DNA from: a virus
Length of the DNA stretch: 22,702 nucleotides
Virus record (IMG/VR): IMGVR_UViG_3300009181_000375
Location: 1 to 22,702 of that record
Reading direction: 5' to 3' (one strand)
Both the position numbers and the translations under genes were made by a program. How positions within the stretch are numbered: position 1 is the first letter of the stretch; every line of letters starts with the position of its first letter. Under the pieces are notes generated by a model. It was not told where the DNA came from. It saw nothing but the letters and a program-made list of their open reading frames with translations, and made no database searches. Positions 1 through 16,500 of this stretch are shown here, in pieces.

Positions 1-177
1 AATAATAAAACTCTCAAAGGAATACTCAAAGATGCCACGCAGCAAGGGTGGCAGTTTGATCGACACAAGAACCACATCAAGGGCAAGCACCCTGACGGCA
101 AGACTACAACCATCAGCGTATCGCCTTCCGATAAACGAGCATTTCAAAACATACTTAGAGACTTGAGGACGAAATGA
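1..177 (+). CDS. HicA-like small protein, C-terminal part (5' end outside window)
   Basis: An open frame runs from the first base to a TGA at 175-177, giving 58 visible residues without a start codon. The visible part has the layout of the HicA/YcfA dsRNA-binding-like fold: a helix with Gly and Trp (residues 7-18), a strand containing H25 in a His-Ile pair, a His-Pro-Asp-Gly turn (30-33), a strand of Thr/Ser, then a Ser-Pro-Ser-Asp-Lys-Arg start to the last helix (41-56). Phages often carry such single-domain proteins near replication genes without a HicB partner. Catalytic activity as an mRNA interferase is not shown; H25 is only a candidate active residue. The gene overlaps the next by ATGA (174-177), so the two are probably translationally coupled. 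The fold assignment is moderate and the function is unknown. Confidence 0.6.
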   Translation, partial: NNKTLKGILKDATQQGWQFDRHKNHIKGKHPDGKTTTISVSPSDKRAFQNILRDLRTK

Positions 178-467
178 CACCAGAAGCTAAAGTTAAGAAG
201 GGGGTGCGTGTTTACTTAAAGGAACTCGGTGCTTATTATTCCATGCCAGTAACGGGCGGCTATGGTAACTCTGGTGTGCCAGATTTCTTAGTATGCTGGC
301 GTGGGAAGTTTTTCGGGATTGAGTGTAAAGCCAACGGCAACAAACCAACCGCGCTGCAAGAAAAGAATATGGGCAGCATACGCGAAGCGGGTGGGCACAC
401 AATAGTTATTGATGAGAACAATGTAGACCAACTTGGGTCGTGGATAAGAGCGCATGAATATGATTGA
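174..467 (+). CDS. VRR-NUC domain nuclease
   Basis: This 97-residue protein is almost exactly one VRR-NUC domain (virus-type replication-repair nuclease of the PD-(D/E)XK superfamily). The signature is visible: an N-terminal Glu (E4), Gly-Val-Pro-Asp with D37, the E50-Cys-K52 pair after a Gly-Ile strand, and Q62 in the following helix. These residues bind the metal and cut DNA in the family. The start at 174 has GAGG at 165-168 and overlaps the previous stop by ATGA. Stand-alone VRR-NUC proteins in phages often sit near an SNF2 helicase, which is also the case here (3919-5496). The probable role is endonuclease in phage replication or recombination, or resolution of branched DNA. The family call is strong; the exact substrate is inferred. 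Confidence 0.9.
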   Translation: MTPEAKVKKGVRVYLKELGAYYSMPVTGGYGNSGVPDFLVCWRGKFFGIECKANGNKPTALQEKNMGSIREAGGHTIVIDENNVDQLGSWIRAHEYD

Positions 468-699: not shown

Positions 700-2684
700 T
701 GGCTAAACCTTTTAAACGTATTATGGTTCTTGATTTTGAAACGGCTTGGTGCAGCAGCACGTATACGCTAACCAAGCTGACCACGGAGGCGTATGTCCGT
801 GACCCGCGCTTCAAAGCATGGGGCGCTGCGTATAAGTTTCACGGCGACCCCACGCCGCCTATCTGGGTAACCGCCGAAGAACTCCCCGGCTTCTTTGCTG
901 AAATAGATTGGTCAAATACCGCAGTGCTGGCGCAGAACACCGCGTTTGATGCCGCCATCCTGCACTGGGTATACGGATACCTGCCCTGCTTCATGTTTGA
1001 TACCTTGAGCATGGCTCGTGCGGTGCGGGGTGTGGAAGCTGGCAATAGTCTCAAGGCGTTGGCCGAAGCCTTTGGGTTCCCGCCCAAAGGGGATGACTTG
1101 AGGTTGAGCGACGGCATCCTTGATGTGCTGCCCCGCCACATCGAAACCAAGCTAGCCAGCTACTGCATCCACGACGTGGAGCTTTGTGAAGGGGTGTTTG
1201 ATAAGCTGGTGGCGGGGTTCCCGACAAAAGAGTTACGACTCATCGACATGACGTTGAAGATGTTTGTTGACCCGCGCCTTGAGCTAGACTCAGAGATGCT
1301 GAAAGAAGCTATAGAAGATGAACGTATCAAACGGGAGGGGTTGCTGTCGAGGTTGACGGTATCAGAGGAAAGCCTAGCCAGCAACGATAAGTTTGCCGAG
1401 GTTCTGAAGTTGGTTGGGGTATCGCCGCCGCTAAAGAAAAAGAAGGCTACTCCCAAGACACCTAACCCTGTAGGTATGACCTACGCGTTTGCCAAGACAG
1501 ACGCCATGTTTCAAGCTTTGTTGAACGGCGACAATGAGGACGTGGCTCTGCTATGCGAGGCGAGGCTGGCGGTTAAGTCTACGCTGGGGCGCACACGGGC
1601 GCAAAGGTTTCTGGACATCTCTACCCGTGGCACGTTGCCGGTTCCCCTGAACTACTACGGGGCGCACACGGGGCGCTGGGCAGCGGCGCGGGGGAGCAGC
1701 ATCAACCTCCAGAACCTGAAGCGGGGGTCAGCCCTGCGCAGGGCTATCATGGCCCCAGAAGGCTATAAGATTGTAGTCTGTGACCTAGCGCAGATTGAGC
1801 CTCGCGTGTTGGCGTGGCTGGCTGGCTACCAATACCTGTTGGATATCTTTGAGTCAGGAGATGATGCGTATGCCGCGTTTGGAGCGCAGATGTTTGGTAT
1901 TCCCGGCCTCTCAAAAGAAAGTCACCCCGACCTACGGCAGTCAGCGAAGTCTGCGCTGCTAGGGGCTGGCTACGGGATGGGCTGGTTCTCATTCGCAGCG
2001 CAGCTTCTCACGGGGTTTCTGGGCGCACCCCCCATGCGGTATGACGTAGCTTTTGCTAAACAGCTTGGTGTAACTAAGGATACGATGCTGGCGTTCATGG
2101 ACTACCCGCCCAACATGGAGAAGGCGCTGTCCATACCAAGGTTGTGTAACGATGACGAAATCGTGGTGCATTGCGTAGCCGCCAAGCAGATTATCGACAA
2201 GTATCGCGCCGCAGCGAAGCCTGTTAAAGACCTCTGGGAACTGTGCGATTCCCTGATTAGCAACTCCCTAGCGGGGGGTTGGGAGCACCCCTATAAGTGT
2301 CTAAACTTTGGCAATGGGCGTATACTGTTACCCAGCGGCCTCTACTTGCGATACCCCGGTTTAGTAGGCAAAGGTGACGATAAGGGGCGGGTGCAGTGGA
2401 CTTACGGGCCGCAGAATAAAAAGCTGTATGGTGGGAAGCTTACCGAAAACATCGTGCAAGCGGTGGCTCGGTGCGTGATGACGGACGGCATGTTGCGGAT
2501 ACAGAAGCGGTATCCCTGTGTGTTGACTGTGCATGATGAAGCGGTAGTGCTGGTGCCTGAAGACGAGGCAGATGATGCCGAGGGTTGGGTGCTGGAGCAG
2601 ATGATTAAAGAGCCTAGCTATATGCCGGGGATACCACTAGCTGCGGAGACAGGGGTGGCCTCACGGTATGGAGATGCGAAATAA
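699..2684 (+). CDS. DNA polymerase I family A with 3'-5' exonuclease domain
   Basis: A 661-residue replicative polymerase. The N-terminal DnaQ-like proofreading domain has all its acidic residues: D12 and E14 (ExoI), D84 in an Asn-Thr-Ala-Phe-Asp motif (ExoII) and Y155/D159 (ExoIII). The polymerase domain shows motif A with D362 in an Asp-Leu-Ala-Gln-Ile-Glu run, motif B with R413, K417 and Y425, and motif C with H612, D613, E614. There is no 5'-3' nuclease domain, as is usual for phage family A enzymes. The residue four after the motif B Lys is L421, which aligns with Phe762 of E. coli Pol I. About 120 residues between motifs B and C include a long insertion relative to the bacterial enzyme. 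GGAG at 685-688 precedes the start, which overlaps the upstream TAA by one base. It copies phage DNA with the primase-helicase and ssDNA-binding candidate downstream. Confidence 0.97.
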   Translation: MAKPFKRIMVLDFETAWCSSTYTLTKLTTEAYVRDPRFKAWGAAYKFHGDPTPPIWVTAEELPGFFAEIDWSNTAVLAQNTAFDAAILHWVYGYLPCFMFDTLSMARAVRGVEAGNSLKALAEAFGFPPKGDDLRLSDGILDVLPRHIETKLASYCIHDVELCEGVFDKLVAGFPTKELRLIDMTLKMFVDPRLELDSEMLKEAIEDERIKREGLLSRLTVSEESLASNDKFAEVLKLVGVSPPLKKKKATPKTPNPVGMTYAFAKTDAMFQALLNGDNEDVALLCEARLAVKSTLGRTRAQRFLDISTRGTLPVPLNYYGAHTGRWAAARGSSINLQNLKRGSALRRAIMAPEGYKIVVCDLAQIEPRVLAWLAGYQYLLDIFESGDDAYAAFGAQMFGIPGLSKESHPDLRQSAKSALLGAGYGMGWFSFAAQLLTGFLGAPPMRYDVAFAKQLGVTKDTMLAFMDYPPNMEKALSIPRLCNDDEIVVHCVAAKQIIDKYRAAAKPVKDLWELCDSLISNSLAGGWEHPYKCLNFGNGRILLPSGLYLRYPGLVGKGDDKGRVQWTYGPQNKKLYGGKLTENIVQAVARCVMTDGMLRIQKRYPCVLTVHDEAVVLVPEDEADDAEGWVLEQMIKEPSYMPGIPLAAETGVASRYGDAK

Positions 2685-2697: not shown

Positions 2698-3108
2698 ATG
2701 GATAAAATAAAAATTGGTAAAACTGGTTACACAGTAAAAGTAGTTGAAGCGTTCTGGAACAAAGCAGTAGTTGCCCAGATTGATTACCACGCAAAAGTAT
2801 TAACACTCGCCAGACGCGGCGGCATATCGCACAAGCCGCGCTCAAAGACGGACATAGAACAGTCTTTCTGGCATGAGGCTGTGCATGGGATATTGAAAGA
2901 CATGCGCAACCCTTTGGAGAGCAACGAAGCGTTCGTAGATGGAATAGCCATCCGGTTAATGAAGCTTCTCAAACAGGTGTATCCGAATGAAAGTAACTTG
3001 GTCACACAGCGCGTTAAAGGAATACGAAAGCTGCGCCCGGAAGTATTACGAAGTCAACGTATTAAAGAACTACAAGTTTCAAGAAACAGAACAAACAAGA
3101 TATGGTAA
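2698..3108 (+). CDS. Small HExxH metallopeptidase-like protein (3' end uncertain)
   Basis: The frame is open from an ATG at 2668, but ATG 2698 with GGAGAG at 2689-2694 is the better start and gives 136 residues. The clear feature is His-Glu-Ala-Val-His at residues 59-63, the zinc-binding HExxH motif, followed by Glu77 in a helix (Asn-Glu-Ala-Phe-Val-Asp) that is a likely third ligand. This layout matches small zincin-like proteins (ImmA/IrrE-like) common in phages. The part after about residue 96 lies in a 122-base overlap with the next gene, is Arg/Lys-rich, shows no domain signal and may be an artefact of an indel or a frameshift: a -1 shift would end the protein at TGA 2988-2990, in an ATGA overlap. 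Substrate unknown; cleavage of a host or phage protein is inference. Confidence 0.75.
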   Translation: MDKIKIGKTGYTVKVVEAFWNKAVVAQIDYHAKVLTLARRGGISHKPRSKTDIEQSFWHEAVHGILKDMRNPLESNEAFVDGIAIRLMKLLKQVYPNESNLVTQRVKGIRKLRPEVLRSQRIKELQVSRNRTNKIW

Positions 3109-3643
3109 AGACTTACACAAAGCAGCAGAACGTTACGTCAAAGGTGGGCCGCTGGCAAAGCAGTTTAGTTTCATCCAGCCCACCCTCGACGCGCTAAAAG
3201 CTAAACGCGGCACCAAGCACACGGAACTTCAGTTAGCGTTGGGTGTGGACTTGAAGCCGTGCAAGTGGTTTGATAAAGAGTTGGTGTGGGTGCGGGGGAT
3301 TATTGACCTGTTGATTCTTGATGGTGACACCGCGTGGGTGATTGACTACAAGACCGGCAGTAATAAGTATCCCGACAAAGACCAACTTGACTTGATGGCG
3401 TTGATTACGTTCGCGCATTATCCTGAAGTCAAGAAGGTTAATGCGGCGCTGCTGTTCGTTGTAAAAGAAAGTATGACGAAGCACAAAGTAGAAGTAGAGA
3501 ACGCAGAAGGTATCTGGTGGGACTATCGTGAGCGTGTTGCCAAGATTGAGGCAGCGCACACTAACAACGTGTGGAACCCCAAGCAGTCAGGGTTATGCCC
3601 GTGGTGTCCTGTTAAAACGTGTGAGTTTCATCCTGAACATTAG
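2987..3643 (+). CDS. Cas4/RecB-like PD-(D/E)XK nuclease with Fe-S cysteines
   Basis: A 218-residue single-domain exonuclease of the RecB/Cas4/AddB type. The N-terminus has the family start Ser-x-Ser-x-Leu-x-x-Tyr-x-x-Cys (C16). H44, E80, D107 (Gly-Ile-Ile-Asp), D120 and K122 (Asp-Tyr-Lys-Thr-Gly) and Q133 form the nuclease site. At the C-terminus, C204, C207 and C212 complete a Cys-x(n)-Cys-x2-Cys-x4-Cys set that, with C16, could hold a 4Fe-4S cluster as in Cas4 and AddB. The N-terminal motif begins within ten residues of ATG 2987, so this start is firm despite lying inside the previous gene; AGG at 2975-2977 is a weak ribosome site. Likely role: end resection for recombination, or breakdown of host DNA. 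No CRISPR genes are nearby. Confidence 0.92.
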   Translation: MKVTWSHSALKEYESCARKYYEVNVLKNYKFQETEQTRYGKDLHKAAERYVKGGPLAKQFSFIQPTLDALKAKRGTKHTELQLALGVDLKPCKWFDKELVWVRGIIDLLILDGDTAWVIDYKTGSNKYPDKDQLDLMALITFAHYPEVKKVNAALLFVVKESMTKHKVEVENAEGIWWDYRERVAKIEAAHTNNVWNPKQSGLCPWCPVKTCEFHPEH

Positions 3644-3652
3644 GAGAGTGAA

Positions 3653-3919
3653 ATGCCAAAGTCGTCCAAGCAAGAACTTAAAACAAAAGCAGCCTACAAC
3701 AAGATACCCAGTGTGCAAGACAAGCGGGTTATCAACAACCGCGCTAGGCGGCAAGCACTTGCTGCCGGTAAAGCAAGCGTGGGGGATGGCACTAGCGTAG
3801 ACCACATTAAGCCTCTGGGCAAAGGTGGTTCCGCAAGCAAGAAGAACACGCGGATAATTTCAGCCGCAGAAAATAAAGGGTGGCGTAAGAGACAACCTGA
3901 GATGTATGGGAAGAAGTAA
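3653..3919 (+). CDS. HNH endonuclease
   Basis: An 88-residue basic protein with a short HNH motif: D50-H51 in a Val-Asp-His-Ile run, Gly-Gly at 58-59, N65 and N74 in an Ala-Glu-Asn. The order Asp-His, Asn, Asn on a beta-beta-alpha metal unit is typical. The Cys pairs that stabilise some HNH proteins are absent. GGAGAG just before ATG 3653 is a good ribosome site. The TAA overlaps the ATG of the helicase gene by one base. It could be a free-standing homing-type nuclease or part of the replication and repair set; its embedding in the operon with coupled junctions favours the latter, without proof. Confidence 0.85.
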   Translation: MPKSSKQELKTKAAYNKIPSVQDKRVINNRARRQALAAGKASVGDGTSVDHIKPLGKGGSASKKNTRIISAAENKGWRKRQPEMYGKK

Positions 3920-5496
3920 TGCAAATTGTAGATAATAAGGTGCTGGTGTTGCGTACTAAGACGCCCTCTAAGTACGCAATAATCCCCCGCTCAAAACACA
4001 TCGGAGAAGTAAAGAAGGGTGTTCACGAGGTGGCAGTTTATTGGGGCTTGGATGAGGTGCGTGTGCTTAAGAATCTGGGTGTGCGCAACGTGCCTTCTCC
4101 CATCCTGCGTAAGTATGAGTGGCCGGGGCGCTACACCCCGTTTGCCCATCAACGCGATACCGCTGCGTTCTTGACTATGCACAAACGGGCTTTTGTATTT
4201 AGTGAGCCGGGAACTGGTAAAACGCTGTCAGCACTGTGGGCGGCAGATTACTTGATGCGCTTGGGGGAGGTCAGGCGCTGTCTCGTGCTGTGCCCACTGT
4301 CTATCATGCAAGCCGCGTGGATGGCAGATATAACGAAGAGCGTTATACACCGCACGGCTGTGATAGCGTATCACTCTAATGCGGAACGTCGCATAGAAGC
4401 GGTAAAGAACGATTACGAGTTTGTAATCAGCAACTATGACGGGTTGCCCATGATAGCCAACGCGCTGCTGGAAGACGGGCGCTTTGATTTAATCATAGGC
4501 GACGAAGCTAATGCGTGGAAGAACGTATCAACCCGCCGTTGGAAGACGCTTAACAAGTTGATACTGCCTGACACGTACGTGTGGCTGATGACCGGCACAC
4601 CCGCCGCACAATCGCCTGTGGATGCGTATGGGCTGGCGCGTCTGATTAACCCCACCGCCGTGCCTCGCTTCGCTACCGCGTGGCGTGACAAGGTGATGCG
4701 CCAGATTACAAAGTTTAAGTGGGCACCGAAAGAAGATGCTTACGATGCGGTGTACGAAGTGCTGCAACCTGCCATCCGGTATACGAAAGAGCAGTGCCTT
4801 GACCTACCACCAGTTGTAACTATTACACGGGACGTTGAGCTTACGGATCAGCAGATTAAATACTACCGGATGTTAAAAAGCCAGATGCTGGTGCATATGT
4901 CGGGGGAAACAATCACCGCCATAAACGCCGCTGCCAGCGTCAACAAGCTGTTGCAGATTTCGGCGGGGGCAGCATACACCGACAACAAGGAAGTAGTGGA
5001 GTTTGACTGCGCCCCCCGGTTGGCGGTGTTGCTAGAAGCATTGGAGGAAACTACCCGCAAGGTGCTAGTGTTTGCACCCTACCGGCACAGCATAGAAACT
5101 ATCAGTAGCTACCTTGATAAGCATGGCATCTCTAGCACCAAGATACACGGAGATGTTCCTGCTTCTAAACGTGCATTGATATTCGATGCGTTTCAAACCG
5201 CCGAAGAACCACGGGTGCTGGTCATCCAACCGCAAGCTGCATCTCATGGGGTAACGCTTACGGCGGCTGACACGGTTGTCTTCTGGGGGCCGGTGATGTC
5301 TGTTGAGACTTACCTCCAGTGTATAGCCCGTGCGGATAGGGTAGGCCAGACGGGAAACAAAGTTACGGTAGTCCACATACAAGGCAGCGACATAGAACGC
5401 CGTATGTTCAAGCAGCTAGCAGGAAAAGTTGATAGCCACGGAATACTGATCCAGCTTTATGAAGATGAGCTTGCGAACAGAACTATCGACGTGTAA
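3919..5496 (+). CDS. SNF2-family superfamily 2 DNA helicase/translocase
   Basis: A 525-residue helicase. The first RecA-like domain has a Q78 (His-Gln) motif, Walker A Gly-Thr-Gly-Lys-Thr at 98-102, an Asp-Glu-Ala-Asn box (195-198) as motif II and Thr-Gly-Thr-Pro (225-228) as motif III. The second domain ends in motif VI with R471, R474 and Gly-Gln at 476-477, the arginine layout typical of SNF2 proteins. The DEAN in place of DEAH/DEAD is a mild variant. Such phage proteins use ATP to move along or remodel DNA, and the nearby VRR-NUC, HNH and RecB-like nucleases are plausible partners. It follows the HNH gene by a TAATG overlap. A 36-base gap separates it from the next gene. Confidence 0.93.
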   Translation: MQIVDNKVLVLRTKTPSKYAIIPRSKHIGEVKKGVHEVAVYWGLDEVRVLKNLGVRNVPSPILRKYEWPGRYTPFAHQRDTAAFLTMHKRAFVFSEPGTGKTLSALWAADYLMRLGEVRRCLVLCPLSIMQAAWMADITKSVIHRTAVIAYHSNAERRIEAVKNDYEFVISNYDGLPMIANALLEDGRFDLIIGDEANAWKNVSTRRWKTLNKLILPDTYVWLMTGTPAAQSPVDAYGLARLINPTAVPRFATAWRDKVMRQITKFKWAPKEDAYDAVYEVLQPAIRYTKEQCLDLPPVVTITRDVELTDQQIKYYRMLKSQMLVHMSGETITAINAAASVNKLLQISAGAAYTDNKEVVEFDCAPRLAVLLEALEETTRKVLVFAPYRHSIETISSYLDKHGISSTKIHGDVPASKRALIFDAFQTAEEPRVLVIQPQAASHGVTLTAADTVVFWGPVMSVETYLQCIARADRVGQTGNKVTVVHIQGSDIERRMFKQLAGKVDSHGILIQLYEDELANRTIDV

Positions 5497-7422: not shown

Positions 7423-10341
7423 ATGACACCGCTGGAATTTATAGCGGCTGTGGTGCCGTCGGCGGGGGTATTGTGCGTCGCGGAACTAAGCTCAAAGAAA
7501 AAAGAACACGTATTCGTAGACAGTGTTAAAGACCTCGGCATACCCATAGCGCGTTTCATTGCAGAAAAACGGGACACCTACTTCGCTTTGGCAAGCTTCA
7601 CGGAAAGTGGTAATCGTACTGCGGCAAATGCGTTGTATATGAAGTCGTTGTTTGTTGACATCGACTGTGGCGGGGGTAGGCCGTATCTGACAAAGCAAGC
7701 AGCAGCAAACGCGTTAGATACGTTCTTGCAGGAAACGAAGTTTGGCACAATGGGCAATCCGTGGGTTGTTACATCAGGCGGGGGTCTGCACGTCTACTGG
7801 CCTTTCACTGAAGATGTACCCATCGCGCAGTGGCGCACTGTTGCTGAGAACTTCAAGCGGTTGTGCCGGAAGCATTCGCTCCATATCGACTTTACTGTAA
7901 CCGCCGATGCAGCGCGGGTGTTGCGTGTGCCTGACTCTTTCAACTGGAAGATCAAGGGCAAACCGCGCAAGGCTAAGCTTATGGTAAAGGGCGGCACCTT
8001 TGTGTTTGCAGATGTAGCAGCAGCGCTTAAAGTGCAGATTAACGGGGAAGCTGTAGCCGAACCGATATTTAATCCTGCGTCTATTCCCGGCATTCGCCCC
8101 AAACGCCAAACCCCATCGCAAATCAGGTTGATCGAGAACAGCATCACACGGTTCAAGACCATCATGCTGCGCACGGACGGAGGCTCTGGGTGCTTGCAGT
8201 TGCGCCACTATGTAGAGAACGCAGCGCAGGAGGGTATGGAACCCCTGTGGCGTGGGATGCTGTCGATAGCGCAAAAGTGCGTGGACGTTACCAAGGCGGC
8301 GAAGTGGCTGTCAGGGCTGCACCCATACGATGAAACCCGTATGGAACAGAAGCTACGCGAGATTAAGGGGCCATACTCCTGCGTCAAACTGGATGGCGAG
8401 AACCCCGGCTTGTGCGAGAAGTGCTCAAACTGGGGCAAGATCACCAACCCCCTTGCACTGGGGCGGGAGCTAGCAACAGATAACACCGCTAAAGAAATTA
8501 CTCTGCTGCCCGAGAGTAGCTCATCCGGTGAGCCAGTGCTTCCTAGCCAGATTAGGGTAACGCGCCCCACGCCACCACGCGGCTTCTCTTACGGTAAGAA
8601 CGGAGGCGTGTATCGTGAGATGGAAGTGGAAGACGAGAGCAAGAACATTATTAAGAAACAAGTTTTGGTATTACCGTATGATCTGTTTGTTGTAGACCTG
8701 CTGAACGTCAACAAAGAACATTACGTGTTCATGCTGGCTACGCGCCCTGAAGGGCCAGTGCAGATATCCCTCCAGCAGAAAGCCGTAGTCAGTAAAGACG
8801 ATACCGTTAAAGCGCTGGCAGCACAGAACATCGTGGCGGCGTATGGCTCTGGCAACGACAAGAACCTGTTTGATTACGTCAGGGCGTGTGTGGAGGCGGT
8901 ATCTTCCAGCAAGAACGCTATCAACGTGCCTAACAGCTATGGCTGGCAACCGGACGGCGGCTTTGTGGCGGGGGGCAAGATATTCATGCCCGACCAGACT
9001 GTTCGCCAGATACCCATGCCGGGGTTAGAGAACCTTACCCACGCCACCACACCAAAAGGAACGTTGGAGACATGGCGTAAGTATCCCGAGATGCTGATTG
9101 CGAAGGGGCTATACGACGTGCTGGCGATTGGCTGCGGGGTAGGGTTTGGCTCCCCGCTGATGGAGTTCACGGGGCTGGACGGCCTAACCTTCCACGCTGG
9201 CTCAACGGAGTCAGGCACCGGCAAGACTGTGGCGCTGGAGTTGGCGGCGTCTATCTGGGGACACCCTCGTGACTACCGCGTAGGCAAGAGCACCTCTGCG
9301 GTAGCCATGCAGCAACGGGCGGGGATGCTACGGAACCTGCCGCTGTTGAGCGATGAGATAACCAGTAAGAACAGGCGCGATGCGGAGTGGTTCCCTGAGT
9401 TCGTGTTTGACCTGTCTGAAGGCCGCGCTAAAGAGCGTATGGAGTCAGGGGCGAACAAGGAACGGCTGAATACCTCAGTCTGGTCGCTGATGGCGGTGCT
9501 GTCATCCAACACCCACATGATGGACTACCTGACCGGCGGGCGTAAGCACTCCTCTGAGGGCGAGATGCGCCGGATGCTGGAGTGGGTTACTAACGAGACG
9601 CTCTCGTGGGAGGTGCATGAGGTCGAGGTTATAAAGACCCTGCGCTACCACCACGGCACCGCTGGCGATGTTTACGCGCAATGGCTGACCCTCAACCGCA
9701 GCACGGCTATGGCGGTCTACCAGAGTGTTTACCAGCGCATCAGGGCTGAGTTCAAGATGACCAACGACGAGCGCTACTGGCATGCTGGCGTGGCGTGTTG
9801 TGTGGCGGGGTGCATCCTTGCGGGGTCAAAATACGCTAACGTGGTAGACCTCCCCATCCAGCAGATCATCATCAGCCTAAAAGTCATTGTAGAGAAAGCC
9901 CGTCAGACGGTTCGCTCCAACGTGCGCACGGCTGAAGATATCCTGAACGCCTACATCCGCGAGTTCTACGGCAAGTTCATCGTAGTCCGCGCTATTGACG
10001 GGGCGATACAGGCTACCTTTGGCGAGGCAGGAACGGTAGATGAATCCATTACACGCACCCAGATTTCAGGGCGGGTGGAACGGAACATAACTCCGGGCTA
10101 CGTAAACTTCTTTATAGAAGAAGGGTTACTGAAATCCTACTGTTCCAGCATGAGCTTCGGGTATGCCGACTTTCGTAAGCAGATGGAGAAGCTGCACCGC
10201 GTTGAATACGTTAAAAAGGATATGCTGTCTAAGACTAAAGGCCCACAGATGCGGGTCAATACAATAAAGATAAGCCGTCCTGAGTCACCCCTGCTTGAGC
10301 CTGATGCCGAAAAAGATACGGATATATTACCCGTGGAGTGA
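7423..10341 (+). CDS. Primase-helicase: AEP-type primase fused to DUF927-like helicase
   Basis: A 972-residue two-part replication protein. The N-terminal domain shows archaeo-eukaryotic primase motifs: D79 and D81 (Val-Asp-Ile-Asp), Ser-Gly-Gly-Gly-Leu-His with H123, and D156 followed by Ala-Ala-Arg-Val-Leu-Arg-Val-Pro (163-170). A Cys-rich patch around residues 322-337 may bind zinc. The second half matches phage DUF927-type ATPases: Walker A with K601 in Gly-Thr-Gly-Lys-Thr, followed by an Ala-Ala-Ser-Ile-Trp-Gly; Walker B with D644-E645 in Leu-Ser-Asp-Glu-Ile; and a Ser-Ser-Asn-Thr sensor near 691-694. It probably makes primers and unwinds the fork for the polymerase at 699-2684. The C-terminal 150 residues look like a small DNA-binding tail. 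It overlaps the next small gene. Confidence 0.9.
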   Translation: MTPLEFIAAVVPSAGVLCVAELSSKKKEHVFVDSVKDLGIPIARFIAEKRDTYFALASFTESGNRTAANALYMKSLFVDIDCGGGRPYLTKQAAANALDTFLQETKFGTMGNPWVVTSGGGLHVYWPFTEDVPIAQWRTVAENFKRLCRKHSLHIDFTVTADAARVLRVPDSFNWKIKGKPRKAKLMVKGGTFVFADVAAALKVQINGEAVAEPIFNPASIPGIRPKRQTPSQIRLIENSITRFKTIMLRTDGGSGCLQLRHYVENAAQEGMEPLWRGMLSIAQKCVDVTKAAKWLSGLHPYDETRMEQKLREIKGPYSCVKLDGENPGLCEKCSNWGKITNPLALGRELATDNTAKEITLLPESSSSGEPVLPSQIRVTRPTPPRGFSYGKNGGVYREMEVEDESKNIIKKQVLVLPYDLFVVDLLNVNKEHYVFMLATRPEGPVQISLQQKAVVSKDDTVKALAAQNIVAAYGSGNDKNLFDYVRACVEAVSSSKNAINVPNSYGWQPDGGFVAGGKIFMPDQTVRQIPMPGLENLTHATTPKGTLETWRKYPEMLIAKGLYDVLAIGCGVGFGSPLMEFTGLDGLTFHAGSTESGTGKTVALELAASIWGHPRDYRVGKSTSAVAMQQRAGMLRNLPLLSDEITSKNRRDAEWFPEFVFDLSEGRAKERMESGANKERLNTSVWSLMAVLSSNTHMMDYLTGGRKHSSEGEMRRMLEWVTNETLSWEVHEVEVIKTLRYHHGTAGDVYAQWLTLNRSTAMAVYQSVYQRIRAEFKMTNDERYWHAGVACCVAGCILAGSKYANVVDLPIQQIIISLKVIVEKARQTVRSNVRTAEDILNAYIREFYGKFIVVRAIDGAIQATFGEAGTVDESITRTQISGRVERNITPGYVNFFIEEGLLKSYCSSMSFGYADFRKQMEKLHRVEYVKKDMLSKTKGPQMRVNTIKISRPESPLLEPDAEKDTDILPVE

Positions 10342-10501
10342 AACCCCGGTAGGGGGTAGCTTCTTCGTGCCAACGCTGGATGTGTATGCAACGAAAGAGA
10401 CAGGGCTGAAGATAGCCCTGCATCTCCGCATCAAAGGTAAAGTAACCTTCGGTTTATACAACGGCAAGCACGGGGTGCTATTTACGCGGCTTTCCGTATG
10501 A
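10304..10501 (+). CDS. Small hypothetical phage protein, last gene of the left arm
   Basis: A 65-residue basic protein from ATG 10304 (an upstream TTG at 10295 is also possible). It starts inside the end of the primase-helicase gene (38-base overlap) and ends inside the end of the convergent giant gene (20-base overlap). It looks coding because of a pattern I have seen in small phage proteins: Tyr-Pro-Trp, then Gly-Gly-Ser-Phe-Phe-Val-Pro (often Gly-Asp-Ser-Phe-Phe-Val-Pro), a basic middle and Gly-Val-Leu-Phe-Thr-Arg near the end. It is predicted to be a small beta-rich protein. No function can be named. Confidence 0.65.
   Translation: MPKKIRIYYPWSETPVGGSFFVPTLDVYATKETGLKIALHLRIKGKVTFGLYNGKHGVLFTRLSV
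10401..10420. other. 7-base perfect stem-loop near the convergent gene ends
   Basis: CAGGGCT (10401-10407) pairs with AGCCCTG (10414-10420) across a 6-base loop, inside the last plus-strand gene and about 60 bases before the minus-strand stop. No T-run follows on either strand, so it is not a standard terminator; it may be chance, or part of a factor-dependent or bidirectional end signal. Confidence 0.3.
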
Positions 10502-13500
10502 TGTCGCGGTATAGCCTAGCCGTATCTATCTGCTCTTTGCGTAGCTGGTCTATGCGGTTGCGCTTTTCGCGGGGCGAAAGATCAGAAGCTTTAACTTCAG
10601 TTATGGCATCGGTTGATTGTTTCATATCTTTTTTAAAGTCACCGTAGCTAGTGCCAATCAAAACCCGTTGCATATTAGCGTTGAGATAAGCTTCGGCTTC
10701 AGTGGGATTACCATCCGCGTACATCTTGTTGTAGGTATTAACCGCCTGCTCACCGTCCTGCATCAACTCATAGGTGCGGTTGATGATACCGCCAGCGTCA
10801 TTGGGCTGGAACGCGCTACTAAAGAACGCAACTTGGGAAGCCTTTTTTTCAGCCTGTTGCACTTTAGGACTAGCAATAAACGCATCAGCCAACGACACCG
10901 CAGACAGCAACGTTTGCGCACCAACGCCTTTTATAAACTGATCCACTTTAACTGGCGATACCCCCGGAATGCCCATGCTGCCAAGCACCTTTGCCAGTTC
11001 AGTTGTTGTATCTTTATACCGTTGCGCAGGGTCAAGGGACTGCATACGCGCCGACTCAACATCAGCACCGGTAAACAAGTCTTTACCAGTTATGCTTTCA
11101 ACAACCGGCACAAGGAACTGCGGTATGCCCTTGCCGGAACCGCCCGGAATCGAGTTAATACCCAACTGCACCAACGCTTGAGCGATGGGCGCTACGTCGC
11201 CATCTCCAGCTACAGAATTGTAAATAGCTTCTGGTATGGCTTTAGCCAGTAAACCAAACTCAAACGGAATCGGTATCCTAAGCGGTTCATCAAACCCCGG
11301 AACACGCACAAACCAGTTGTTAAGTTTTTGCTCCGGTGTGGCGTTCTTGTAGGCTTCGTCGTCTTCCATCGCCATCGCATACATAATCGTAAACGCAGCC
11401 ATTGCCACAACCCGTTGCTTAAACTTTTCCTGAATCTTCAAGCGCTCGTTGTAAGGCATATTGCCCGTCATGGCTTTAACAAACACACTCAAACCTTGTA
11501 TCTGCGCATTAAAGAACGGATACAACGTATTGGCCCACTGCACCGAGGGGGATACACCGCGCCGATTAAAGTCTGTGATTTCATTGGCGGCTACCCACGC
11601 TTCCATCTCATTTAAACCCTGCTTGATGTAGCTGTTGTATGCAGACAAACGCACACCCACATCAGCCTCCATGCTCTTGGCTTCAGCATATGCAAGCATC
11701 CCTGTAATAGATTGCTTACCGCTTACAACGCTGCGAAGAATTGTAGACAACGCTTCTTTGCTGCCACCGGCAAGAACTTGTCCACCCAGCAGCCCTTGGC
11801 TTTCAAGCAGCGCGGCTTCACGACTTGTGCCAGTCAACGATTTATATATGTTTTTGAAAGGGTCTACTATAGGTATAAAGTTGGCACCACTGGTTCCCAG
11901 CGCAGAAAACGAATCTTTAACAACCTGCCGAAGCGGATACATTGGACTCAAAATAACAGCGCGGCGCAGGAACTGCGCAGGGAGGCCCATAAGTTCCAGC
12001 GCCTTGGGCATTGTAGTTTTAACGCCCTCCAGCCCCTTGACCAATAACGTCGGCGGGATACCTTCAAACATCGTATTGTTTGTATCTTTTACGCGAACCG
12101 CGATATCTTCGCCGTCTTTCCTAAAGCGAATAACATCAGCGCCTTTATACGTATCCGCAATCTTAAGGCTTTCTTTTTGTTCGCCAGTTTTTTTGTCTTT
12201 ATACTTACGCGTTTCAAGCATATCAAGTTTGCGTAGAGTATCCACAACACTACCCGTTGCGATGTTGCGCAGGGCCATGTCTGTCAACAAGTTTGTGTTC
12301 TGCACCGCGCTGGTAAAGATGTTACTGATCGCAGTGTCACCGCCCACCAAACTGTGCAAATGCGGTTGGTCTATCAAGTTTCCAACAATAATTGGGCTTG
12401 ATTCTCTACCCAAAATTAATTCAATTTCACCGCTTGGGTTTTCCCGATAGAACGGAATGTAGTCTTTGGTAGCGCGAAGAGCATCAGCTTTTTCTTTAGA
12501 AAGTGCCCCCGCTTGTTCGGCAAAATCAACCAGCCCTTTGTTGTAATCGTTGTATATGCCCCGCGCTTTTTCAAATGCCGTATTAATTCTGGGCATTGCC
12601 GCAATCTCGCGCTCAAACTGTTGCAGCTTGGCTTCGGTCAATACTTGATTGCCGTTTTTATCTTTACCAAAATTTAATTTAGCAACGCCAATTTTCTCGT
12701 TCTTAACCCGCTGCGCTGCTATATACATGGTAAACATATCGCCAGCATCTTTTTCAGCAAGACCCGATTCACCTATGGCTTTAAACACTTTAACAAGATT
12801 AGCGCCGTCCTTGTTCTTGGTTTCAACCATCCAATACTTGTTAGCACCAGTGCCTTTTTGTTTGTATTCAAGAGCGCCGTTTGCCGCAACCAACCGCGTG
12901 AAGTTCATTATCTTGTCACGCGCACTCAAGTCATAACGCACTTGGGACGCTTCCAAGTCTGTTATCTTTTTGCCAGCAACGCCTTTTTTAAGCGCCGCCC
13001 AAACGGGCGCATACCGGTCTACAAACTGGGTCATGCCAGCCAAACCCATTACGTTGCCGCGTATCTCGTCAATCTTAGACCTGTCCTGCGCCACTACCGT
13101 GTGCATCATAGCCCACGATTCCGCGCTCATACCTGCGGGGCGTGGGCCTTCCTTGCTTCTAAAAGCAATTGTGCCATCGGGAGATACATAAGCACCCAAC
13201 CGCCCCGCTGCCAAGTTGCGTGACGACTCACGGATCAGCGCTTGGATTTCTTTAGCGTCACGTTTCGCCATCTCAGACAGACCGGAGTTGCGGAAGTAAC
13301 TACGCACCGCAGCTATCATGTCCCGCACAAAAGTCTTAACCTTCTCGGTAAAGGTAGGCGCAACACGACGCCCCTCGGCAGCGTGGGCAATCATCTCGCG
13401 CACGATTGCCATCCGCACTTCCGGGTTCTGCAACGCATCTTTCGCTGCCAGCGCAGTCTCAACATCAGGGAACACGTTCAGCGCCGTAGCAACATCGGCT

Positions 13501-16500
13501 ACGTGCGCATCGCCTTGCTTAAACAACCGGTCAACCAGCGCTTGCATACGCTCTTTACCAAGCACGGTGTCCACGCCGTAGTGACCAATTAACTCGTGCG
13601 CGATGGTTTCTTCAAGATCGGCGATGGTCTTGTGTGCCTCGCCTATGATGACAACGGTGCCATCGGGCATTACCGCGCCTTTGGCAAAGTCCAGACCTTT
13701 ACGATACATAGCCGCCAAGAACTCGGGCGAAGCATCTTTCAGAGTAGGCGCGTAGACAAAGTTGATACCTTTTGGCAAGGCTTTCTTAACCCGCGCTGCC
13801 ACGTCCGCTGCGGCTTTAGCGTCAACACCACGGTCTTGTTCCGTGGCTTCGCGGTGTTCTGTCCTATCAAGGTTTGCGGCATTAGCATAATCAAGAAAAA
13901 TAGCGCGGTCTTCCCCTTCAATTCCATGTTGGTCTGCGTAAGCAACAGGATTTTTAAGGCGCTGTTTAAAGCTTTGTGGTTTAATTTTTTCAACATATGG
14001 AACTGTAGCGGGCGGCTTGCCGCGTTGCCTAGTTGTAGTGCTGGAAGGTTGATTGGCTAGTTTCTGCTTATCCTTTGTCTGCTGACTTAGTTTGTTGTCA
14101 TTGGTAGACTTACGCCCTTCATAATACGTAGCAATCCCCGCTTCGCGCTCAGAAGCCTGTCGCGCTGAAATGCTTACGACGGGAGCTACACGCGAGCTAA
14201 CATTATAACCAAACCTTTTAAGAGCAGCTTCAATACTGGCTATTTGCTTTGGCAAATTTTTAGCGTCTGAATCGGCGTCTTTAATAGCGCGTTTACGTTT
14301 GTTAAGACTACGACGCTCTTGCGTAAGTGCTTCTATAACATCTGCAACATTACGCGGTTGTAAAGGAGCGCGTTGTTTTGAAGCGCGTAGAAGCATACGT
14401 TGACGAATAGTAGGGTCTTTTTCTTGTGTAAATTGTGCTTCTCCCCGCAAGGCTTCTCCCCTTTGTTCGCCCACATATTGAACGTCTGCATCAGACGCAA
14501 GAGTTTTTTTACCAATTTCTTGTAGGCGTTCTTCTTTATTTTTTATCTTGTTAATGCGGTTATCAAGCTCCGCTATAGTTGTTTTTACACTTGCCCCGCC
14601 AAGGTCGTAAAGCAACGTCTCAGCTTGCGCCAATAGTTTTGTTTTCTCTAAGCGTTTACGGGCAAGTAGCTCTACCGCAACGTCCTCTCTTTGTCCTTTT
14701 GCGCTATCATCTGTTTGCGCAACGGCACTTTCCGCAGTCTTGGCTTTGCGCAAAGCCCTTTGCGCATTTGAAAGTTGTTTGGCAAGTCTTTTGCTGCTGG
14801 GGTTAGCTTCAACCCGTTCCTCTAGCTTTGCTACTGCATCTTGCAAACGGGACACAGCGCCAACAAGTTTAGGCTCAGACACAATCCCCGTTTTTTCAAG
14901 GTTTGTAACAACTTGTTGCTCTGATGTTGGTTTTCCTTTACGTTGTTTTTCTTCTTTAACGGCAAGTTTTTCAGCATTACGTTTTTGCAATTCAAGCTGT
15001 TCAGCCGTGGGCGGCGTGTTTTGTTTTTCCGCAAGTGCTTTTTTGTTACTGTCACGAACGGTTTTGTAAGCTCTACGAGCTTTTCTAAGCATAACTACAA
15101 TTTGTTTATTGCTAGGGTCTTCTACATTTAATTTAAGCAACCGCTCAACGCTGTTACGCAGCCCCTCTATTTTGCTTTTTTGTGCAGCATCTTTTTTAGT
15201 TTGTATTTTTTTAACTTCGTCTGGCCTATTTGAAACTATCAATAATCTAAGACGAGCTAACCCCTCCCGCGATATGCCTTTTTCTGCAACAGCTTGAGCT
15301 TTTCGTAAGATGGCGGTGATGGCTTCATTGTTTGTAAGCCCATCAGATACAACCTGCGCAATGCGTTCTTTAACGGTTTTAGTACCCTGCAAAGTCAAAC
15401 GCGCTGAGGATACAAGAGCGCCAACTGCATCAGATATGGTTTCAAAAGGAACTGTTTTAGTTTCTGGTGCAGGTGCAGCTTCAGATTTAACCGGGGTAGC
15501 CGCTGTGTCTGCGGCAACTTTTTCTACTTTAGGAACCTTGCTCTTAAACTCTTCAGCTTTAACGTATTGAGCACTGCCTGTCTTTTTAGGGAAACTCAGT
15601 TCGTAGGTGCCTCTACCAACGTCGCGGCGCAGTTTGGTTAACTCGCTGCGCAACGTGTCACCCATAGTCATGCCGCGCCGTAGCTCAAAGCCTTTGTCTT
15701 CAAACAAGCTTTGTCTAAGGGAAATGCCCGGCTTACGCTGTTGTTGCGCTTCTTCTTCAACAGGCTTACCAGACGCTTTAATCTGTTTATCAACAATGCG
15801 TTTGTCTAACGTAACCAAATCAGCGTTAAACGCGTTAAGCTGAGTTTGTAAAATTTGTAAAAGTTCTTGCGGAGTAGGTTCTGTGTTTCGTGCAAAAGCC
15901 TCTCGCAAATTTTTAAATCCGCTTATTTTTCGCAAACTTTGTTGCAGTTTTTTTGGTATGCCTTTGTTACGTTTTACATAATTTGATAATGTTGCTACTC
16001 GGCTTGTTAGTTTTGTTATTTCGCTAGCTAGTTGCACACGAGTAAGCCCGTTAATTTTTTCCTCTGCAAATTTTAAAGACCCTGTTTTTTTATTGGGGGC
16101 ATTTTCTTCAGGCAACCGCACTGCCGCGCTCAACGGAGCATTATCAATGAGCTTGGAAAACTGTTTGTCCAGTTTGTTTACAACCGCATCAATCTCAGCT
16201 TGAGTAAGGGCGGGTGATCCAAATTCTTTACGCCGCGCTTTGGCCTCCCGCACAACCGCATCAAGCATATCGCGCTTAATCTTATGGGCTTGAGCTTGCA
16301 AACTTTCTACATCAGCTTCTTCATTTCGGCCTTTACGCAACGAGTCAATAGCATTGGCAAGGTCAAACAAGTGCTGCTCACGTTCTTTAGCCGCCGAGTC
16401 AGCTTCCTGCCGAGCTTGTAACGGGCTAGTTGTTTTTTCTTGTTTCGGTGCTGCTTTAGCCGCATCAACAAGGCGCTGCAAAATACGAGACTTGGCTTCC

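Follow-up and report, generated by a model that had tools for sequence, protein, structure and literature searches.

The window analysed here is a stretch of 22,702 nucleotides from a virus (IMG/VR record IMGVR_UViG_3300009181_000375), in which an open reading frame on the plus strand (positions 699-2684) encodes a family A DNA polymerase of 661 amino acids with exonuclease motifs and a polymerase domain. The protein matches PF00476 with 86.2 bits (cut-off 34.3), including motifs A, B and C, and the phrog_17 DNA polymerase profile with an E-value of 8.4e-84. By motif position, and with columns numbered after E. coli, motif A (DLAQIEPR, 1782..1805, +) contains D362, the steric gate E367 and P368, the last of which corresponds to E. 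coli residue 711. Motif B with the O helix (R413-K417-L421-Y425, 1935..1973, +) was read from the sequence, and the AlphaFold2 model places a helix at residues 410-425. Motif C (H612-D613-E614, 2532..2540, +) is present in 83/83 family members, a number that comprises the window, 80 viral relatives and two MAG contigs. The sequence also displays Exo I (D12-F13-E14, 732..740, +; DFET in 79/83 members), Exo II (N80...D84, 936..950, +; 82/83) and Exo III (Y155...D159, 1161..1175, +; 82/83) of a 3'-5' exonuclease, for which PF01612 gives 20.9 bits and does not reach its cut-off of 23.6. The AlphaFold2 model (mean pLDDT 82.6) resembles the Klenow, Bst, Taq and T7 polymerases with Z-scores of 20-24, and its fold is Klenow-like (Z 22.4 against 1kfd over 487 aligned residues, with an rmsd of 4.4). 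We infer that the protein is the replicative enzyme of a tailed phage.

The residue of interest is L421 in motif B. The first-pass annotation had taken K417 for the motif B lysine, Y425 for the tyrosine and L421 for the counterpart of Phe762 in E. coli Pol I, and these positions proved to be exact. R413 starts at 1935, K417 is encoded by AAG at 1947-1949, L421 by CTA at 1959-1961 (+) and Y425 by TAC at 1971-1973, and the translation of 1947-1973 reads KSALLGAGY. A second leucine, L420, adjoins L421; since K417 and Y425 fix the register, the K+4 position is nevertheless unambiguous. Two MAFFT alignments, with residues counted in the E. coli and T7 genes, agree in placing L421, and no other residue, in the column of E. 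coli F762 and T7 Y526. In addition, phmmer pairs L421 with the phenylalanine of Taq motif B, which we take to be Taq Phe667, the equivalent of E. coli 762.

The polymerase gene is surrounded by further genes on the plus strand. An endonuclease-like gene (174..467, 97 aa) matches phrog_93 with an E-value of 1.3e-18 and has no Pfam match. Behind the polymerase follow a RecB/Cas4-like PD-(D/E)XK nuclease (2987..3643, 218 aa; PF12705 with 67.2 bits, phrog_69 exonuclease, and a weak Cas4 match under the cut-off), an SNF2-type helicase-like protein (3919..5496, 525 aa; PF00176 with 91.5 bits) and a DUF927 primase/helicase-like protein (7423..10341, 972 aa; PF06048, phrog_8841 DNA primase/helicase). 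The minus strand holds, at 10482-19016, a single open reading frame for 2844 amino acids, in which an LPD38 large polyvalent protein domain lies close to the C-terminus.

How far these neighbours are shared was followed in 31 family contigs, namely the window and the 30 relatives located on contigs of at least 20 kb; the other 50 of the 80 relatives lie on contigs below 20 kb and were left out. The SNF2 protein is present in 31/31 of these contigs, and a search with family profiles found UvrD in 0/31 and ribonucleotide reductase in 0/31 of them. The RecB/Cas4-like nuclease was looked at in the window, in one MAG contig (L101) and at a prophage of Motiliproteus coralliicola only; it was found in the window, and the SNF2 and PD-(D/E)XK proteins also occur at the Motiliproteus prophage.

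Scanning IMG/VR with the window polymerase yielded 256 relatives; we retained the 80 best, which show 61-91% identity. Leucine occupies position 762 in 80/80 of these best relatives, and residue 421 was contained in none of the six search peptides by which they were found. The leucine codons of the 80 relatives comprise CTA (23), CTG (23), CTC (11), CTT (10), TTA (7) and TTG (6). As the residue is fixed while all six leucine codons are in use, Leu762 is most likely under purifying selection in the family of the window, as judged from the sequences. The first-pass annotation had also named Leu762 as common in marine virus polymerases, which agrees with its presence in 617/1195 and 934/2045 PolA peptides from aquatic viromes (PMC6302109). 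One scan of bacterial genomes added close relatives on two MAG contigs and, in one prophage, a polymerase of 31% identity. The two close relatives, with 61% and 75% identity, lie in contigs of an Armatimonadetes MAG (L100) and a Chitinophagales MAG (L101), which might point to hosts or to wrong binning.

In a first tree of 43 polymerases, calculated from an alignment without column 762, the window falls within a clade of 30 rows that carries Leu762 throughout (30/30, support 100/100), so that the placement in a Leu762 clade, which had been named as a check, is confirmed. KPP25 is the nearest isolate row to the window, and RHph_TM3, Rollin, phiA008 and the Motiliproteus prophage are close by; the branching order among these five has partial support and differs between our two trees. 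CN2 and VD13 are Leu762 rows outside the 30-row clade, and CN2 represents a separate Leu762 lineage, with the Phe762 polymerase of ZCSE2 as its sister. On a second tree of 48 rows, from which the motif columns were left out, Leu762 needs three state changes. A single group of all Leu762 polymerases is disfavoured, the tree forced to contain it being rejected by the AU test with p 0.022, a value to be taken with caution because the set contains long branches. Sau690 and ten of the fifteen rows of the window family are present in the first tree only. A preprint describes two Leu clades, each as monophyletic (PMC13228545); CN2, a second Leu lineage in our set, may be one of them, and VD13 would be a third lineage.

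Some records stand outside these counts. The polymerase of Salmonella phage SE2 (L093:164-3263) has an interrupted motif B and for this reason entered neither tree nor any count at residue 762: it is annotated as two genes, and motif B ends shortly before 762. A record related to SE2 bears the name 'intein-containing DNA polymerase precursor'. Two loci (L147, in the CN2-like set, and L203) have an unreadable motif B and were counted as unresolved, and phiR18, CRPAP1904 and other unfetched tblastn matches are not among the records read at 762. Scanning viral sequences with the Rollin polymerase yielded no relatives.

What might this leucine mean for the phage? It had tentatively been suggested in the first-pass annotation, as in the literature, that Leu762 marks a temperate phage, since a slow and accurate polymerase would suit a virus that integrates into its host. 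Such an association has been published for cultivated phages (PMC6302109), and it is matched by part of our records: tyrosine integrases occur in six Leu762 phage records (ctvy9321, phiCDKH02, phiSP119-1, Emery, Javan512 and Sau690), and Ec606R2, also with Leu762, has a resolvase domain. Moreover, the Motiliproteus coralliicola prophage combines a Leu762 polymerase with a tyrosine integrase about 13 kb downstream that adjoins PhoH (L102:9974-11938 and L113:8122-9381), and hence the wider, deep clade includes temperate members; an open reading frame resembling a repressor beside this integrase has no Pfam match and was not used as evidence. However, in the 31 contigs of the window's own family, which may be incomplete, tyrosine integrase (PF00589), serine recombinase (PF00239) and S24 repressor (PF00717) were each found in none. 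Only 10/30 of the relatives' contigs exceed 58 kb, a length close to that of the records for KPP25, RHph_TM3, Rollin and phiA008 (60.9-65.3 kb; that of Rollin is called partial). KPP25, RHph_TM3, Rollin, phiA008, BU183P1, JessA, phiEc3, VD13 and CN2 all carry Leu762 and lack both PF00589 and PF00239, which leaves the 16 Leu762 phage records (without SE2) with six tyrosine integrases, one further resolvase domain and nine with neither. Conversely, integrases or recombinases of either type are carried by HTVC201P, RhynO and phiC31 among the ten Phe/Tyr762 phage records searched, and HMO-2011, with a Phe762 polymerase, has an annotated integrase in its record. The records used for lifestyle are a hand-picked sample, and thus these fractions are not rates.

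Published phages argue against the temperate reading as well. The authors who describe CRPAP1904, a genome relative of KPP25 at 92.7-93.7%, call it lytic, partly for lack of known integrases (PMC13340246), and Leu762 also occurs in virulent Bradyrhizobium elkanii phages, whose annotations show none of the hallmark genes of lysogeny, although lysogeny is not excluded by the authors (PMC12656738). For the Mesyanzhinovviridae, to which CN2 belongs, 77 genomes were searched and two of them, both misclassified, were the only ones with integrases, although reports on lysogeny conflict (PMC11946847). The same source describes primase-helicases of this family that were misnamed as integrases. A putative integrase annotated in RHph_TM3 (L083:30601-33684) matches DUF927 only, so we did not include it among the lysogeny genes; the RHph_TM3 record also contains an attL note. 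Leu762 in all 80 relatives examined (the best of 256), together with the absence of the lysogeny families from the 31 contigs, speaks against reading temperate life from this residue by itself, and so does the rejection of a single Leu762 clade. We therefore consider it quite improbable that Leu762 marks the window phage as temperate, and the temperate life proposed for its lineage was not corroborated. The absence of an integrase is compatible with lysogeny; the three gene families searched reveal no hint of temperate life in the family of the window itself, and a mainly lytic life would be the more plausible one. This is of some relevance, since residue 762 serves as a marker for reading phage lifestyle from metagenomes.

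The opposite view would be that Leu762 is a frozen marker of the lineage, which became fixed in an ancestor, has persisted for historical reasons and does not affect copying in any way relevant to the phage. The few state changes on the tree, three for Leu762, and the almost uniform Leu clades are in line with it. However, it is difficult to reconcile with the use of all six leucine codons around a fixed residue, that is, with purifying selection, nor does it fit the T7 enzyme, in which the change Y526L lowers activity by 97% and fidelity was unmeasurable, and a T7 phage with leucine at 526 cannot complete its life cycle (PMC13228545). There is thus at least one background in which site 762 is not neutral, and we regard a mere relic as rather unlikely. 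The source of the idea of a slow but accurate enzyme is a single Taq mutant, to which PMC6302109 and PMC9069017 refer. Among eight natural Leu762 polymerases that were purified, five extended primers and two of those five displaced strands (PMC9069017). For the window polymerase, any effect of Leu762 on rate or accuracy is something we infer.

A third reading starts from phiVC8 DpoZ, a family A polymerase of solved structure (PDB 7PBK) from a 2-aminoadenine phage; its motif B includes L455 and F459 (PMC8599892), equal to 762 and 766 by motif spacing. The window polymerase might then copy 2-aminoadenine DNA too, and it does match the NCBIfam DpoZ model weakly. This match, however, scores 30.1 bits, below the cut-off of 350, residue 766 of the window polymerase is Tyr425 and not phenylalanine, and PF00709, the PurZ-type family, was found in 0/44 records searched, including all 31 family contigs. 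For these reasons we dropped the 2-aminoadenine reading, which we hold to be extremely improbable. The window and phiVC8 DpoZ are alike in their leucine at 762, whereas the former has Tyr766 and Pro711 and the latter Phe766 and Val711. The polymerases of RHph_TM3 (L083:19992-21902) and Rollin (L084:2986-5127) possess Leu762 and Phe766, the same pair as phiVC8 DpoZ, and despite this no PF00709 gene was found in either record.

We therefore favour, with a probability of roughly 0.6, the reading that the gene encodes the replicative family A polymerase of a tailed phage, in which a natural and long-fixed Leu762 marks an old lineage and its replication module, and not lysogeny. The position of the residue, its conservation, its clade, its gene neighbours and the absence of the three lysogeny-linked families from relatives were directly observed. 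According to this reading, the polymerase would work in a module with the SNF2-type motor, the RecB/Cas4-like nuclease and the DUF927 primase/helicase-like protein, a module from which UvrD and ribonucleotide reductase are absent. For T7 it has been argued that leucine is unable to stack on the incoming sugar as phenylalanine or tyrosine does (PMC13228545), and the enzyme thus most likely depends on alterations elsewhere in the pocket. Foremost among the candidates would be a small residue or proline at 711, adjoining the steric-gate glutamate.

In the first alignment, residue 711, just after the steric-gate Glu710, is alanine, proline, glycine or serine in 15/16 rows of the Leu762 clade, with the window family counted once and Rollin (L711) as the exception. 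It is proline in both Leu762 rows outside the clade, and none of the 11 Phe/Tyr rows has one of these four residues. Larger sets of loci point in the same direction: proline is found in 83/83 members of the window family, in 79/79 readable CN2-like loci (from the best 80 of 87) and in four of the six readable VD13-like loci (seven fetched), the other two having leucine, and alanine is found in 2/2 KPP25-like loci. By comparison, the residue is tyrosine in 4/4 ZCSE2-like (Phe762) loci, valine or isoleucine in 80/80 HTVC201P-like Tyr762 loci (best 80 of 411) and phenylalanine in 80/80 HMO-2011-like Phe762 loci (best 80 of at least 599); the latter two sets represent one lineage each, so that their sum of 160 counts sequences and not events. 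A further exception among Leu762 enzymes is phiVC8 DpoZ, with valine at 711 in a pairwise alignment. On the 48-row tree, a small residue at 711 needs four changes. The independent pairs that differ at 711 always do so in the same direction, yet there are two to three such pairs only, with which a sign test cannot reach 0.05 and no significance can be claimed. Position 845 (Glu/Gln in the clade versus Asn) was considered as a partner of 762 as well and rejected, as both Leu762 rows outside the clade keep asparagine.

It is possible, if tentative and clearly short of even odds, that Leu762 and a small residue or proline at 711 form a two-residue solution, reached in three lineages (the clade of the window, CN2-like and VD13-like) with few exceptions, which compensates for Leu762 and marks SNF2-type replication and not temperate life. 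Residue 711 may then be the compensating partner, as far as comparisons of sequences suggest. The available passages of PMC13228545 name Glu480 and call for compensating changes, of which they name none, and a word search of its text did not find the residue after the steric gate as a partner. Nor did a word search of PMC9069017 find motif A, residue 710 or residue 711, and the DpoZ paper, in the portion at hand, gives unusual residues for motifs B, 6 and C, not for A (PMC8599892). Titles and the openings of abstracts contained nothing on 711 as a partner either, which is no proof of its being unpublished. If true, the pair with 711 would supply the compensation so far missing, by which natural Leu762 enzymes remain functional although the single change kills T7. 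Residue 711 would thereby offer a concrete residue for the compensation that, according to the T7 work, must exist, and it is the one lead of wider interest here.

Among cultivated phages, KPP25 and RHph_TM3_14A offer the closest comparison. Their polymerases match that of the window by tblastn over 99% of the query, with 32.0% and 31.1% identity, and like the window they combine Leu762 with an SNF2 family protein and an annotated RecB-type exonuclease. In contrast to the window with its Pro711, both have alanine at 711, and RHph_TM3 has phenylalanine at 766. The CN2-like polymerases (Bordetella phage CN2, Mesyanzhinovviridae) share both Leu762 and Pro711 with the window. In the CN2-like loci (L114-L193), motif B is often near-canonical, for example AKTINLG, with leucine replacing phenylalanine, and motif A is of the QEPR type; these motifs provide a natural contrast to the Phe762 polymerase of ZCSE2. 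Finally, the profile of the Leu762 Group I of PolA, as described by Nasko et al. 2018 (PMC6302109), comprises SNF2-like and RecB-like neighbours and neither UvrD nor ribonucleotide reductase. The window matches this virioplankton group in Leu762, in its SNF2-like and RecB-like genes and in the lack of ribonucleotide reductase and UvrD, and it differs in that its RecB-like gene encodes a PD-(D/E)XK nuclease of 218 amino acids and not a helicase. Placed by its neighbours and its residue, and not by a joint tree, the window polymerase would be an ordinary member of the already known Leu762 Group I.
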